Positions 18,646 to 34,457 of a stretch of 56,650 nucleotides of DNA are shown here, in pieces. The position numbers were made by a program, and so were the translations under genes. The stretch lies in NCBI GenBank assembly GCA_035570235.1, contig DATMML010000107.1, forward strand, positions 1 through 56,650. Reading direction: 5' to 3'. The notes under the pieces are model-generated. The model saw nothing but the letters and a program-made list of their open reading frames with translations, was not told where the DNA came from and ran no database searches. The number at the start of each line of letters is the position of its first letter. The stretch's first letter is position 1. The stretch is from Vicinamibacteria bacterium (GTDB lineage Bacteria > Acidobacteriota > Vicinamibacteria > Fen-336).

Positions 18646-19512
18646 CTAGGAGATGTACTTGCCGATGACGGGGGCCAGTTCGCGCTTGACCTTGTCCGGG
18701 ACCAGGTGGGAGGGGGTCACGAGCGCGGACTTCAGGGCCTCCGCGCACTCGCAGCCCCGGGGGATGGGGAGATGGCGCAGGGCCGTCTTGAGCACGGCCT
18801 GGGCGGCGGCCGCGTTCTTGCCCAGGTTGGAGATGATGTACTCCGCGGTCACGGAGTCGTGCTGGGGGTGCCAGCAGTCGTAGTCCGTGACCATGGCGAG
18901 CGTCGAGTAGCAGATCTCCGCCTCCCGGGCCAGCTTGGCCTCCTGCAGGTTGGTCATGCCGATGATGTCCATCCCCCAGGAACGGTAGAGCTCGGACTCG
19001 GCCCGGGTGGAGAACTGCGGCCCCTCGATGCAGAGGTAGGTCCCCCCCACGTGATGGGTGACCCCCGCCTCCGAGCAGGCCGCCGCCATGACGCGCGAGA
19101 GATTGGGGCAGAAGGGATGGGCGAAGGCCACGTGGGCCACGAGCCCGCGGCCGAAGAAGCTGGAAACGCGCTGGGTGGTGCGGTCCACGAACTGGTCGGG
19201 GATCACCATGTGCAGGGGCGCGTAGGCCTCCTTCAAGGAGCCCACCGCGGAGACGGACAGGATCCACTCCACGCCCAGGGCTTTCAGGGCGAAGATGTTG
19301 GCCCGGAAGTTGAGCTCCCCCGGCAGCAAGCGATGCCCTCGGGCGTGGCGGGGCAGGAAGGCCACCCGCTTCCCCTCCAGCGTCCCGATCACCAGGCTGT
19401 CCGAGGGCGGCCCGAAGGGCGTTTCCACCGCCACCTCGCTTCGGTCGCGGAAGCCCTCCATCTCGTAGAGGCCGCTTCCCCCGATGATGCCGATCCGCAC
19501 GCTCTCGCTCAC
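18646..19512 (-). CDS. mtnP: S-methyl-5'-thioadenosine phosphorylase
   Basis: 288 residues, the usual size. The protein splits methylthioadenosine with phosphate into adenine and 5-methylthioribose-1-phosphate. Visible features: IGIIGGSGLYEMEGF (phosphate loop start), TPFGPPSDSLVIG, FLPRHARGHRLLPGELNFRANIFALKALGVEWILSVSAVGSL, CIEGPQFSTRAES, MTNLQEAKLAREAEICY and a late YDCWHPQHDSV segment. Purine nucleoside phosphorylase is the near relative, but GHRLLPGEINYRANI-type residues favour MTAP. The start overlaps the stop of the MBL gene upstream as ATGA. It is followed by the PfkB kinase. Confidence 0.93.
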   Translation of the reverse strand: MSESVRIGIIGGSGLYEMEGFRDRSEVAVETPFGPPSDSLVIGTLEGKRVAFLPRHARGHRLLPGELNFRANIFALKALGVEWILSVSAVGSLKEAYAPLHMVIPDQFVDRTTQRVSSFFGRGLVAHVAFAHPFCPNLSRVMAAACSEAGVTHHVGGTYLCIEGPQFSTRAESELYRSWGMDIIGMTNLQEAKLAREAEICYSTLAMVTDYDCWHPQHDSVTAEYIISNLGKNAAAAQAVLKTALRHLPIPRGCECAEALKSALVTPSHLVPDKVKRELAPVIGKYIS

Positions 19513-20348
19513 TCTCCCCCCTCGCTCAGCCGATAGCGGTCACCCTCGCGACAGACCCGCCCCAGCGGCGTCTCCCGGTCGTGATAGAAGAGGAGCCAGG
19601 CGTCGCTCTCCGCGGCCTTTTTGAGCAGCTCCCGCTTCGCCTCCAGCGTCGCCACCGGGTAGAGATCGTAGCTCATGACGAAGGGGAGGGGCAGATGGCT
19701 CGTGGTGGGGAGGAGGTCGGTGGGGATGTAGAGGGCGTTCCCCCCTCCCTCCACGATCACCATTTGATGATGCGCGGTGTGGCCCCCCACCCTCACCACC
19801 CGCACCCCCGGCGCCACCTCCGCATGACCGTCGAGCAGATCCACCTGGCGAGCCTCGGCGAGAGGAGCGATATCGACCTCCCGATACGACGCCCGGCTGC
19901 GCTCGTGGGGCCGGGTGGCGTCCTCCCATTCCCCCTTCTGGACCAGATAGCGCGCGCGGGGAAAGGTCGGGACCGGCCTCCCCTCCTCGAGCCGGGTGTT
20001 GCCCCCGGCGTGGTCGAAGTGGAGGTGGGTGTTGATCACGATGTCGATGTCCGCGGGGCCGAGGCCCAGCGCTCGCAGGGAGCCGAGGAGGGTCGACGAT
20101 CTCTCGATGCCGTAGAGGCCCCGCTCCTTCTCGTTCCACTTGTCGCCCATGCCGGTGTCCACGAGGATCCTTCGGCCCGCAGTCTCGACGAGGGCCACAT
20201 TGAGGCCGAGGGTGACACGGTTCTTTTCGTCCGGGGGATCGGTCTTCTCCCAGAGGCCGCGCGGCACCACCCCGAAGAGGGCCCCTCCGTCCAGAGCGAA
20301 GGCTCCGTCGTGCAGGATGTGGACCCGGATGTTTCCGAGCTCGAGCAC
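19509..20348 (-). CDS. MBL-fold metallohydrolase
   Basis: 279 residues. The metal site motif NTHLHFDHAGG supplies HxHxDH, and later GGHTAHHQMVIVEGGG and LLFYHDRETPLG provide further His ligands. The sequence is like the lactonase/hydrolase branch (MBL fold, AHL lactonase-like) with an N-terminal LGNIRVHILHDGAFALDGG. The substrate could be an ester, lactone or thioester; being between mce and mtnP in a tight operon suggests a metabolic rather than a signalling role, but that is inference. Start at ATG 20348, 10 bp after the mce stop. Confidence 0.9.
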   Translation of the reverse strand: MLELGNIRVHILHDGAFALDGGALFGVVPRGLWEKTDPPDEKNRVTLGLNVALVETAGRRILVDTGMGDKWNEKERGLYGIERSSTLLGSLRALGLGPADIDIVINTHLHFDHAGGNTRLEEGRPVPTFPRARYLVQKGEWEDATRPHERSRASYREVDIAPLAEARQVDLLDGHAEVAPGVRVVRVGGHTAHHQMVIVEGGGNALYIPTDLLPTTSHLPLPFVMSYDLYPVATLEAKRELLKKAAESDAWLLFYHDRETPLGRVCREGDRYRLSEGGE

Positions 20349-30358: not shown

Positions 30359-30691
30359 ATGGCAGAGCGCCACGACACCGACGTGCTGTTCAAGGCCCTG
30401 GCCGATCCCAGCCGGCGCAAGCTGCTGGACCTGCTGCATGCGCACGACGGCCGCACACTCAACGAGCTGTGCGAGCACCTGGACATGACGCGGCAGGGCG
30501 TGACGCAGCACTTGGACTTGCTGGAGGCGGCCAACCTGGTCGCCACCGTGCGGCGCGGCCGCGAAAAGCTCCACTTCCTCAATCCCGTACCGCTGCAGGC
30601 GATCTACGAGCGCTGGATTGCCAAGTTCGAGAAGCCGCGCCTCAAGGCGCTTGACGATCTGAAACGACGACTGGAGAAAGCCAATGGCTAG
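30359..30691 (+). CDS. ArsR-family winged-helix transcriptional regulator
   Basis: 110 residues. Winged-helix core: DVLFKALADPSRRKLLDLLHAHDGRTLNELCEHLDMTRQGVTQHLDLLEAANLVATVRRGREKLHFLN. There is no ELCVCD-type metal box, so it is the non-metal branch that often pairs with an SRPBCC protein. It probably represses its own operon through the palindrome at 30319-30339. The start is ATG 30359, 27 nt after the -10. The stop overlaps the SRPBCC start by 8 bp. The frequent use of CTG leucine codons and the AT-rich control region differ a little from the neighbours. Confidence 0.93.
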   Translation: MAERHDTDVLFKALADPSRRKLLDLLHAHDGRTLNELCEHLDMTRQGVTQHLDLLEAANLVATVRRGREKLHFLNPVPLQAIYERWIAKFEKPRLKALDDLKRRLEKANG

Positions 30692-31169
30692 ATCAACCTT
30701 TGTCTATGTGAGCTACATCCGCACCACGCCGGAGAAGCTGTGGTCAGCTCTGACCGACGTGGAGTTCATAAAGCAGTACTGGTTCGGCGTGCGCTGCGAG
30801 TGCCAGTGGACGGTGGGATCCTCGTGGAAGTTGGTGGCCGGCGACGGTCAAATCCTCGACGCCGGCGAGATCCTCGAGGCCGAGCGCCCGCGGCGCCTAG
30901 TGATCCGCTGGCAGCACCAGAACAAGCCCGAGCTCAAGGCCGAGGGCGAGTCGCAATGCACGATGGAGCTGGAGCCCAGTGGAACGGCGGTCAAGCTCTC
31001 CATCACCCACACCGTCGAGCGCGAACCCTCGAAATTCATCGAGGCGGTGTCCGGCGGCTGGCCGAAGGTCGTCTCCAACCTGAAGTCCCTGCTGGAGACC
31101 GGCTCCATCGTTCTGCCCGACCCGTACCCGACGGGCAATCAGCGGCAGATGCCTGCGGCCAGCCGCTGA
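30684..31169 (+). CDS. SRPBCC/AHSA1-type (START-like) protein
   Basis: 161 residues. The AHSA1 pattern is clear: FVYVSYIRTTPEKLWSALTDVEFIKQYWFGV, WTVGSSWKL, EILEAERPRRLVIRWQ and SITHTVEREPSKFIEAVSGGWPKVVSNLKSLLETG. These domains form a deep hydrophobic cavity and bind or protect small molecules; the ligand is not known. In many bacteria an ArsR regulator and an AHSA1-like protein are encoded together as here. The start overlaps the arsR stop by 8 bp, so expression follows the palindrome-controlled promoter. Confidence 0.9.
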   Translation: MARSTFVYVSYIRTTPEKLWSALTDVEFIKQYWFGVRCECQWTVGSSWKLVAGDGQILDAGEILEAERPRRLVIRWQHQNKPELKAEGESQCTMELEPSGTAVKLSITHTVEREPSKFIEAVSGGWPKVVSNLKSLLETGSIVLPDPYPTGNQRQMPAASR

Positions 31170-31258: not shown

Positions 31259-32728
31259 TCATGGCGGCGGCCAGCCGGTCGCCGGATCCAGCCATTCCTT
31301 CCGGGGCGTGAAGAGAAGCCCGTGGTCGAGGCCCAGCTTCAGGACCGCTTCCTTCGCGGCCTTGAGCTGGGGAGCGCGGGCGAACGTTTCGCGACAGGAG
31401 GGGTGGAAGCGATCGACCTCGTCGTAGACGGAGAGGACGCGCCCCCGGAGCCGGGGGGCCAGCGCCTCGGTCCCCCCGCCGCAGGAGCCGAGGACGACGA
31501 CGTTCAAGCCGTCCTCGCCCAGCTCCGCCGCGGCCGCGAGGGCGAGGAAGCCGCCCTTGGAAGCGCCGAGCAGGGTCACCCTCTCCGGGGCCGCGCCCGC
31601 TTTGACGAGCGCCCGGACCTGGCCGGCCACCCGGGCCGCGAAGGGAAGGCTGGCCTCTCCCTTCCGGACCTCGCTGATCACGGTGAAGCCACGCTCGGCC
31701 AGGGCAGCCAGGATCGCGTCGTACGCGTAGGGCCCGAAGTCGGGGCTGACCGCGTGGCGGCCCTGGTCCTCCAGGATGCGGCCGTGCAGGTAGATGAGAT
31801 AGCGAGCGCGGGGATCGATCGTGGCCGGCACGTCCTCGTGGACGGACCCGGAAGGGCGGCCACCGCTCGCCTCCCCCCGCTCTTGGTCCAGCTGCTTGTG
31901 GTAGACCTGCTCGGCCCGGGCCACGGCCGTCTGGTAGCCCACGGGGTCGATGAAGGGGTTGGGGGTGGCCCCGGTGCGGAGCCGGCGCGCCTTGTCGTCC
32001 GCTCCGTAGAGGGAGGCGTGGGAGGCGAGGAAGACCTCCCCGGACAACCCTTTGAGGACGCGGAACGTCTTCGCGTAGTCCTCCGCGATGCCTGGGTAAG
32101 AAGGCTTGTTCAGGAGGCGTGTGCCGGGGTTGATGCTCATGCTCCCCACGATGACGACCTGTCGGGTCTTCTCCGCGTCCTTGACGTCGAGGGTCCAGGT
32201 CGTGCAGCCGGGGGTGTGGCCGGGAGTGCGGACGGCGGTCAGGGTCGCGCCTCCGAGCGAGACTTTCTCGCCGTCGTGGAGGACCCGGTCCACCGGACAG
32301 GGGGGCCAGAAGTACTCCTCCCCGAAGAGATAGTCCCCTTTGCCGCCGGCCGCGAACACCCCGTCGTCCCCTTCCATCACCATGACCCGGGCTCCCGTGA
32401 GCTCCCGCAGGCGCGGGATGCCCGCGGCGTGGTCGAAGTGGGCGTGGCTCTGGAGCAGGATCTTCACGTCCTCCAGGCGGAAGCCCAGCGCGCGCACGTT
32501 TTGCTGGATCTGGGGCGCGGTCTCCACGAAGCCGCCGTTGATGATGATGTGGCCTTCCGGGGTCGCCACCAGGAACGAGGTGATGTCGCTCGCCCCCACG
32601 GAATAGAGGTTGCCGATGATGAGATAGGGCGCCGCCGGCCGATTCATGGAGCGGTAGGTCTCGTTCGACTGCGCGCCCACGAGGGGGGCAATCAAGATCG
32701 ACATGAGGAAGATCGCGCAGCAGCGCAT
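31259..32728 (-). CDS. Class B3 metallo-beta-lactamase-like domain fused to an alpha/beta hydrolase
   Basis: 489 residues, Sec signal (to about residue 19), strong AAGGAGGT ribosome binding site 8 nt before ATG. Residues about 30-285 form a B3-type MBL domain: SHAHFDHAAG (H95, H97, D99, H100), PGHTPGCTTW (H171) and ASHASLYG (H237). The arrangement of metal ligands matches B3 enzymes (L1, FEZ and THIN-B type), so beta-lactam hydrolysis is plausible but unproven. Residues about 308-489 form a second domain with an oxyanion-type HG (315-316), nucleophile elbow GASKG (S390) and H469 in GLDHGLLF; D436 or D439 could complete a triad. A linker with GGRPSGSVHED joins them. The frame is uninterrupted. 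Both domains should be periplasmic. Confidence 0.88.
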   Translation of the reverse strand: MRCCAIFLMSILIAPLVGAQSNETYRSMNRPAAPYLIIGNLYSVGASDITSFLVATPEGHIIINGGFVETAPQIQQNVRALGFRLEDVKILLQSHAHFDHAAGIPRLRELTGARVMVMEGDDGVFAAGGKGDYLFGEEYFWPPCPVDRVLHDGEKVSLGGATLTAVRTPGHTPGCTTWTLDVKDAEKTRQVVIVGSMSINPGTRLLNKPSYPGIAEDYAKTFRVLKGLSGEVFLASHASLYGADDKARRLRTGATPNPFIDPVGYQTAVARAEQVYHKQLDQERGEASGGRPSGSVHEDVPATIDPRARYLIYLHGRILEDQGRHAVSPDFGPYAYDAILAALAERGFTVISEVRKGEASLPFAARVAGQVRALVKAGAAPERVTLLGASKGGFLALAAAAELGEDGLNVVVLGSCGGGTEALAPRLRGRVLSVYDEVDRFHPSCRETFARAPQLKAAKEAVLKLGLDHGLLFTPRKEWLDPATGWPPP

Positions 32729-32906
32729 GGTCGGTTACCTCCTTTTCGAGGAATCGAGCCTCTCCCCGCGGGGAGCCGTGCTCCCTCCAGCACAATGCGC
32801 GCCAGGCAGGAAGGCGTTGGCTGCCTGAGTGATGAAGCGTCTCGACGGGGGGGGTGTGTCCAGCCCCAAACGACGTCGTGTCCGGACAGGCACGCCCGGG
32901 GTCGGC

Positions 32907-34457
32907 TCAGGCGGAACCTTGGGCTTGCCCCACCCGCAAGACCACCATGGTGGCGTCGTCCGAAGCGTCCATGTCCCCGCGGTGGGCCCGCAGCGCTTCG
33001 CCGACACGGGCGAGGAGCCGGGCCACGTTGCTCTCCCGCTCCTCGACCAGGAGGGCCTCCAGCCGGCCCATGCCGAAGGCCTCCCCCCCCTCGTTCTCCG
33101 CCTCCACCAGGCCGTCGGTGAAGAGAAAGAGGCCGTCCCCCGCGCCCAGGGCCACCCGGCGCTCCTCGTAGCCGCCCCCGGGAAGCAGACCCAGCGGCCG
33201 GCCCGTGGACTCCAGGCATTCCAGGCGACCATCCGCCCGCAACCCCACCTGCGTGTTGTGGCCGGCGCTCACGTAGCGCAGCACACCCCCCCGCCCATCA
33301 AGGATGGCGAGGAAGAGGGTCAAGTAGGTGGCGCCAAGGGTGGAGGCTGCCATTTCGTCGTCCAGCTGCGCCGCGAGCACCGCGAGGTCGCTCTCCAGGG
33401 GCAGGCGGGCGCGGAGGGTGGCCTGGACGTTGGCCATGAGCAGCGCGGCCGGCAAGCCCTTGCCCGAGACGTCACCGACCATCAAGGCCGCTTCTCCGTC
33501 CGCGAGCCCGAAGTAGTTGAAGAAATCGCCCCCCACCTCGCGGGCGGGAATCGAAACCCCGTTCGCCTCCGCGAATGGGAGGCGCAGGGGCGACCGGGGG
33601 AGCAGGTACTCCTGGATGCGGCGGCACATCTCGAGCTCCTTGTGCAGCCGCTCCTCCTGCAAGAGGTGCTCCTGGTGGGCGCGCAGGTCCTTGGCCAGGC
33701 GATTGAACGTGGCGGCCAGGCGTCCGAACTCCCGCCCGGAGAGCATCGGCACCTGCGCATCCAGATCCCCGCGGGCCAGGCGCTCCGCCCCCTCGGTGAG
33801 GGTGGCCAGGTTCCGGGTCATGCCTCGCGAGAGGGGCAGGATGCCGAAGAGCGCGAGACACACCATGCCCAGGCCGTAGCCGAGGTTTCGCACCGCGGTG
33901 CGTCGGATCTCCCGGAGCGACTCCCCGACCGGGCGGGCCACGCCCAGAGTCAAGCCGGATTCGGGGTCGCGGCGGGAGACTACCACCCAGTCCCCGCTCC
34001 CCGCGGAGGTCATGCGGGGCTCGGGGCCGGTGACCAGGGTCAAACCCAGGGCCTGGAGGGTCTTCAGATCCGCGGGGTCCGGGGCGTAGATCTTGCGGTC
34101 GGCGTCGAGGGCGAATGGGATCCCGCCCGGCTGACGCTGGCCACCGGAGAGGACGGTGAGGAGGAGGCTGCGCAGCTCAGCCTGCTCCGCGGTGGCGAGC
34201 GCGTCCAGGCGCGCCTTCTGATAGGCGGCGCCGCGGGGCTCCCGCGACCGCTGGCGCATCCTTTCGATACGGCCGGAGAGCTCGTGGGCCACGGCGTCCA
34301 GCCGGCTGCTCATGTCCTCGGCCAGAGCCCCCGCCTCCTCCGCCACCGCCCGCCGGAAGGCCCGCTGGGAGGACACGTACGAGTAGACGGTCACGCCGCT
34401 CAGGGGAACGACGCTCAGGAGGAGGAAGGCCAGGATGAGCTGGGTGCGGAGCTTCAT
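32907..34457 (-). CDS. HAMP-SpoIIE (PP2C-type) serine phosphatase
   Basis: 516 residues: one N-terminal membrane segment (8-26), an extracytoplasmic region of about 170 residues (dCache-like, with GIPFALDADRKIYAPDP), a second membrane segment, a HAMP domain (ERLARGDLDAQVP), a short coiled coil and a SpoIIE domain. Metal-site motifs are EVGGDFFNYF, MVGDVSGKGLPAALLMA, YVSAGHN and SDDATMVVLR, so the phosphatase looks active. Such RsbU/RsbP-like proteins dephosphorylate anti-sigma antagonists or similar targets in response to an outside signal. The target is not encoded nearby. It is separated by 178 bp from the B3-lactamase fusion downstream. Confidence 0.92.
   Translation of the reverse strand: MKLRTQLILAFLLLSVVPLSGVTVYSYVSSQRAFRRAVAEEAGALAEDMSSRLDAVAHELSGRIERMRQRSREPRGAAYQKARLDALATAEQAELRSLLLTVLSGGQRQPGGIPFALDADRKIYAPDPADLKTLQALGLTLVTGPEPRMTSAGSGDWVVVSRRDPESGLTLGVARPVGESLREIRRTAVRNLGYGLGMVCLALFGILPLSRGMTRNLATLTEGAERLARGDLDAQVPMLSGREFGRLAATFNRLAKDLRAHQEHLLQEERLHKELEMCRRIQEYLLPRSPLRLPFAEANGVSIPAREVGGDFFNYFGLADGEAALMVGDVSGKGLPAALLMANVQATLRARLPLESDLAVLAAQLDDEMAASTLGATYLTLFLAILDGRGGVLRYVSAGHNTQVGLRADGRLECLESTGRPLGLLPGGGYEERRVALGAGDGLFLFTDGLVEAENEGGEAFGMGRLEALLVEERESNVARLLARVGEALRAHRGDMDASDDATMVVLRVGQAQGSA

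Follow-up and report, generated by a model that had tools for sequence, protein, structure and literature searches.

The window, that is, the whole 56,650-nucleotide stretch of DNA analysed here, comes from an uncultured member of the Acidobacteriota and harbours on its minus strand a gene (31262-32728, with the stop codon at 31259-31261) whose 489-residue product, encoded in one frame without interruption, places a subclass B3 metallo-beta-lactamase in front of an alpha/beta hydrolase assignable to no named family. The coordinates 31259-32728 that an earlier note had given for such a fusion are right, and the strand, which it did not state, is the minus one. The features of the gene are the following:

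31259..32728, minus strand: whole gene (489 amino acids plus stop), comprising signal peptide, B3 metallo-beta-lactamase, linker and alpha/beta hydrolase
32737..32744, minus strand: perfect Shine-Dalgarno sequence AAGGAGGT, 8 nt before the ATG of the fusion gene, read directly from the sequence
32672..32728, minus strand: probable signal peptide, residues 1-19 (MRCCAIFLMSILIAPLVGA), judged by eye
31880..32647, minus strand: subclass B3 metallo-beta-lactamase domain, residues 28-283, from NF033105, FEZ-1 (1l9y) and an alignment with 14 relatives from the phylum
32429..32446, minus strand: HxHxDH metal motif, residues 95-100 (HAHFDH), from the alignment
32216..32218, minus strand: metal ligand H171 (TPGHTPG), from the alignment
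32018..32020, minus strand: metal ligand H237 (SHASLY), from the alignment
31829..31879, minus strand: linker, residues 284-300, without a second signal peptide and with a weak internal GTG at residue 300, by comparison with the mature N-termini of standalone hydrolases
31268..31828, minus strand: esterase-type alpha/beta hydrolase domain, residues 301-487 (about 300-487)
31559..31561, minus strand: nucleophile S390 (GASKGG), invariant in 64 sequences
31412..31414, minus strand: probable catalytic acid D439, invariant in 64 sequences, its role taken from alpha/beta hydrolase topology
31322..31324, minus strand: catalytic histidine H469 (DHGLL), invariant in 64 sequences

Checked individually, all the residues named in the earlier note (H95, H97, D99, H100, H171, H237, H315-G316, S390 and H469) are in place, as is the one signal peptide, recognized by eye, that it had put ahead of both domains. 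That the frame is real follows from the position of AAGGAGGT 8 nt before the ATG together with third-position G+C values (GC3) that are coding-like in both parts (B3 half 0.92, hydrolase half 0.91); a 793-residue plus-strand open reading frame over the same region was dismissed as an antisense frame, a product of high G+C. The gene stands alone in its surroundings, with a HAMP-SpoIIE phosphatase upstream on the same strand (32907-34457) and, convergent with it on the downstream side, an ArsR-like regulator and an AHSA1/SRPBCC gene (30359-31169, plus strand). Relatives of one or other member of the latter pair, ArsR or SRPBCC, also lie near hydrolase copies at two other loci (L062 and L051), which may be chance. 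The window encodes a second protein of the metallo-beta-lactamase (MBL) fold (19509-20348, minus strand; PF00753, 94 bits), weakly related to the B3 half and flanked, judging by eye, by a nucleoside phosphorylase and a glyoxalase-fold epimerase.

That an assembly or annotation artefact joined two genes is an explanation to which a fusion known from one assembled genome only naturally lends itself, but we regard it as extremely improbable: the single intact frame has a coding-like codon-position composition in both halves and a strong ribosome-binding site, it lies in the middle of a 56.6 kb contig, the source assembly is 99.57% complete with 0.47% contamination, and an analogous B1-like fusion occurs in two other genomes. 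A read-through or pseudofusion was likewise rejected, given that neither an internal signal peptide nor a stop interrupts the gene and that its composition is coding-like throughout. The signal peptides or lipoboxes of standalone hydrolase relatives are absent ahead of the fused hydrolase, and it is this loss of the hydrolase's own signal peptide that speaks against read-through; the earlier note's worry that this copy might be a one-off read-through is thereby dispelled, all the more as in sister genomes it is a B1-like enzyme that carries this tail.

Going by the usual signatures, there are strong grounds to infer that the N-terminal half is a working B3 enzyme. It scores 290.6 bits (E 8.8e-87) against the NCBIfam subclass B3 equivalog model NF033105, over model positions 2-257 of 257 and above the curated cut-off of 240 bits, and all six B3 metal ligands (H95, H97, D99, H100, H171 and H237) are complete, which bears out the earlier assignment of a B3-type domain with a full ligand set. 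Its best solved relative is FEZ-1 (1l9y; E 9.3e-71, residues 28-281), and it is 41-51% identical to standalone Acidobacteriota relatives, with every metal ligand kept in the alignment with 14 relatives from the phylum. Residues 28-283 thus align end to end with FEZ-1 and the other subclass B3 enzymes of NF033105, whereas among the B3 models and solved chains listed every protein has a single domain and a length of about 260-310 residues, to which the fusion adds a hydrolase of about 190 residues after the B3 domain; this extra domain (residues 301-487) makes the protein a B3 variant, the B3 domain itself still being B3. An N-terminal domain that is B3-like in fold but acts on a substrate other than a beta-lactam, e.g. 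a lactone, would turn the protein into a lactonase/esterase, and environmental B3-like enzymes can indeed have other activities, as illustrated by PNGM-1, which has tRNase Z activity and whose B3 activity has been called promiscuous (PMC6882493). We nevertheless consider this very unlikely, since the B3 equivalog cut-off is passed and the metal motif HAHFDH is canonical, and since the candidate assignment to non-lactamase MBLs of the HARLDQ type was discarded, that model scoring 207 against a cut-off of 350.

The C-terminal half gave no Pfam or NCBIfam match above cut-off. It belongs to the alpha/beta hydrolase superfamily by its predicted fold and its Ser-Asp-His triad residues: modelled alone, the domain reaches a pLDDT of 96.6 and a pTM of 0.93 in AlphaFold, and an alignment of 64 sequences (the window domain plus 63 relatives) has invariant positions occupied by Y, H, G, S, D, H and W. 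The earlier claim of a second, independent serine hydrolase domain is consequently upheld, by the invariance of the triad residues in all 64 sequences as much as by the model, and the domain is intact. C416 and C445 are nearly invariant in the same alignment and would suit an exported protein. In the AlphaFold model of the full-length chain the mean pLDDT falls to 67 overall, with a poor N-terminal half (the alignment holds no B3 rows) and a domain arrangement that is not readable. The nearest solved folds are carboxylesterases, thioesterases and feruloyl esterases (Z 15-17, 13-20% identity), with SOBER1, DcsB, Est30, the PA3859 carboxylesterase and feruloyl esterases at Z 16-17; the modelled fold is carboxylesterase- or thioesterase-like, a likeness that does not specify the substrate. 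With the PF02230-like (Abhydrolase_2) carboxylesterases and acyl-protein thioesterases (SOBER1, Est30 and PA3859) the domain has the fold, the nucleophile elbow and the triad residues in common, whereas its family differs from them in a signature of its own (HGRI, G[AF]SKGG, HGxxYxPxxEW), in being secreted and in its varied fusion partners. At E 0.01, PF02230 fails to match the window domain but matches 41 of the 64 hydrolase members (best E 1.6e-8), and among the matches listed five relatives score 16.8-20.0 bits, the Pfam gathering score being 23 bits.

A profile scan located 80 loci of this hydrolase in Acidobacteriota, Chloroflexota, Calditrichota, Proteobacteria, Myxococcota, Bacteroidota, Spirochaetota and other phyla, most copies being lone secreted proteins with their own signal peptide or lipobox (by eye). 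Elsewhere the N-terminal partner is an AAT/CBAH Ntn hydrolase (L056), a PF00756 esterase (L060), a PD40 propeller (L076) or an FAD-oxidase-like region that is open at a contig end and falls just under the Pfam cut-off (L063), and a retropepsin-like (Asp_protease_2) domain follows the hydrolase in L072 and L073, no other architecture observed having the hydrolase first. How such fusions arise is shown by a pair from Chloroflexota: at L059 an AAT/CBAH acylase gene (986-2011) stands separate, shortly upstream of a separate hydrolase gene, and at L056 (1927-3594) an acylase 83% identical to it is fused to the hydrolase, adjacent secreted genes being joined and the second signal peptide lost. Judged from these architectures, the tail is a generally mobile secreted module that is not strictly linked to beta-lactams; the variety of its partners weakens, but does not remove, the case for a beta-lactam-specific role.

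To our knowledge, descriptions of metallo-beta-lactamases nearly always concern single, unfused domains. Queried with the full-length protein, 14 genomes of the family and 396 sampled across the phylum yielded B3 and hydrolase in one frame in the window's own genome only, and a C-domain profile run over all 193 genomes of the class gave nine strong hydrolase copies, one of which, the window's, is joined to B3. No further B3-hydrolase fusion turned up in genome contigs searched with the full-length protein, in viral contigs searched with the B3 and hydrolase profiles, or in plasmids. Nor did the open-access literature yield a published MBL-esterase fusion or any enzyme of such architecture, which is weak as evidence of absence but agrees with the earlier note, where such a fusion could not be placed in a known enzyme class. 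The search for the same architecture across genomes, which the earlier note had envisaged, recovered the tail in sister genomes behind a B1-like enzyme and the exact B3-hydrolase pair in one genome only.

Those sister genomes, G011 (WYBL01000120.1) and G012 (JAMPXO010000073.1), belong to the same GTDB family as the source genome and carry the hydrolase behind a subclass B1-like metallo-beta-lactamase. Their C-terminal domains are 54-55% identical to that of the window, the domain order is equal and a signal peptide is found at the front only; the difference lies in the N-terminal half, which is B3 in the window and in the pair B1-like, with the motifs THAHGDR and GGC, the latter containing the B1 cysteine. 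These halves can be called B1-like by best match, the B1 NCBIfam model giving them 166-170 bits, below its curated equivalog cut-off of 200, and by sequence their solved relatives are BcII-type and VIM enzymes. Separate B1-like genes are present in three more genomes of the family (G008, G009 and G010), in the last two of which the hydrolase, too, is encoded by a gene of its own on a different contig, and no flanking genes are common to the window fusion and the loci of G010, G011 or G012. The C-domain tree groups the window copy with the B1-fused pair as its sister (support 100/87), alternative placements not being firmly rejected by AU tests (p 0.054 and 0.085). Either one ancestral fusion swapped its front domain, or fusion happened independently in two closely related hydrolases; each of these readings matters because B1/B2 and B3 enzymes evolved beta-lactamase activity independently (PMC6882493). 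The same tail on two separately evolved beta-lactamase lineages within one family makes a functional link to beta-lactam breakdown plausible.

Taken together, these data lead us to favour, with a probability of roughly 0.6, a secreted bifunctional periplasmic enzyme that combines a ring-opening B3 beta-lactamase, complete and of the di-zinc type by sequence, with a serine esterase. Its N-terminal domain would open beta-lactam rings in the periplasm, as expected from the family of FEZ-1-type B3 enzymes, and its C-terminal domain would, by fold and triad, cleave an ester, a thioester or possibly an amide bond through S390, H469 and D439, the fusion presumably exporting both as one chain and in equal amounts. 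Relatives, the Chloroflexota pair included, suggest that it originated when two genes for secreted proteins were joined end to end and the second signal peptide was lost. Counting against the bifunctional enzyme are its occurrence in one genome and the presence of the tail on several unrelated domains, so that the pairing with a beta-lactamase may be incidental, as well as the AU values of 0.054 and 0.085 and the B1-like scores below 200 bits; that both domains act on one molecule is speculative.

An incidental fusion, whereby a mobile secreted hydrolase was joined to adjacent secreted genes with unrelated activities in a near-neutral event, would accord with six partner types besides B3, with the clear joining of neighbouring genes in L059 and L056, with the single occurrence of the B3 pair and with the lack of co-occurrence between the hydrolase and B3 enzymes, the latter being found in 3 of 16 hydrolase-bearing genomes and 98 of 380 others by a rough count in which three candidates per genome were scored. 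Co-occurrence of the two across the phylum was rejected on that count, which speaks against a strict partnership. We hold an incidental fusion to be somewhat unlikely all the same, inasmuch as both active sites are intact and two beta-lactamase subclasses in one family of 14 genomes seem to go beyond chance.

Cephalosporin-C deacetylases and alpha-amino-acid ester hydrolases belong to the alpha/beta hydrolases, a point that we count, along with the esterase-type fold, in favour of sequential processing, i.e. of a B3 domain that opens the ring and a hydrolase that then (or first) removes a second group of the same molecule, such as the 3-acetoxymethyl ester of a cephalosporin or an acyl side chain, in a two-step degradation. 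That the tail recurs behind two beta-lactamases that are not orthologous to each other, one B3 and one B1-like, and behind a domain of the penicillin-acylase superfamily (AAT/CBAH) in Anaerolineales points the same way. Such a division of labour is, however, unlikely in our estimation: the tail has other partners as well (esterase, FAD oxidase, propeller, retropepsin); around the standalone hydrolase copies, out to about 3 kb, no MBL relative was found; and PaaA and PaaC of phenylacetate catabolism gave a weak partial match, below the cut-off, in the source genome. A conserved operon of hydrolase and beta-lactamase was discarded given those neighbourhoods free of MBL relatives and flanks that are not shared, and a penicillin-to-phenylacetate catabolism given the PaaA/PaaC scores. 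The strongest formulation, a dedicated two-step beta-lactam-degrading enzyme for which an unnamed secreted esterase family was recruited onto independent B1 and B3 enzymes, on two or more occasions or with a swap of the front domain, thereby putting ring opening and a second cleavage on one chain, seems to us unlikely.

Natural end-to-end fusions of two complete hydrolases are known from environmental bacteria in the form of LRA-13 and its relatives, which are bifunctional class C-class D beta-lactamases (PMC5967600). The likeness ends with the kinds of domain, since LRA-13 joins two serine beta-lactamases, whereas the window protein joins a zinc beta-lactamase to an esterase-type alpha/beta hydrolase and so does not have the two beta-lactamase domains of the LRA-13 type. 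It is a real, unusual variant of a known enzyme kind, the main point being that one tail occurs on both B1-like and B3 enzymes, and this pairing with different, separately evolved beta-lactamases hints at usefulness. The fusions offer a direct test of environmental beta-lactamases as parts of degradation enzymes, and not only as antibiotic shields, and they mark an unnamed, widespread secreted hydrolase family that is often built into multidomain proteins. Two further copies of this hydrolase deviate from the common pattern. One (L032/L103, G004:C9:109303-109932) has an internal signal-peptide-like stretch and is in frame, with no stop between, with an upstream TfoX-like reading (by eye), an arrangement that could reflect either joining by read-through or a non-standard start; the other (L062, G054:C23:48206-48790) is cut short by an in-frame TGA that follows HGAFY and is possibly decaying.
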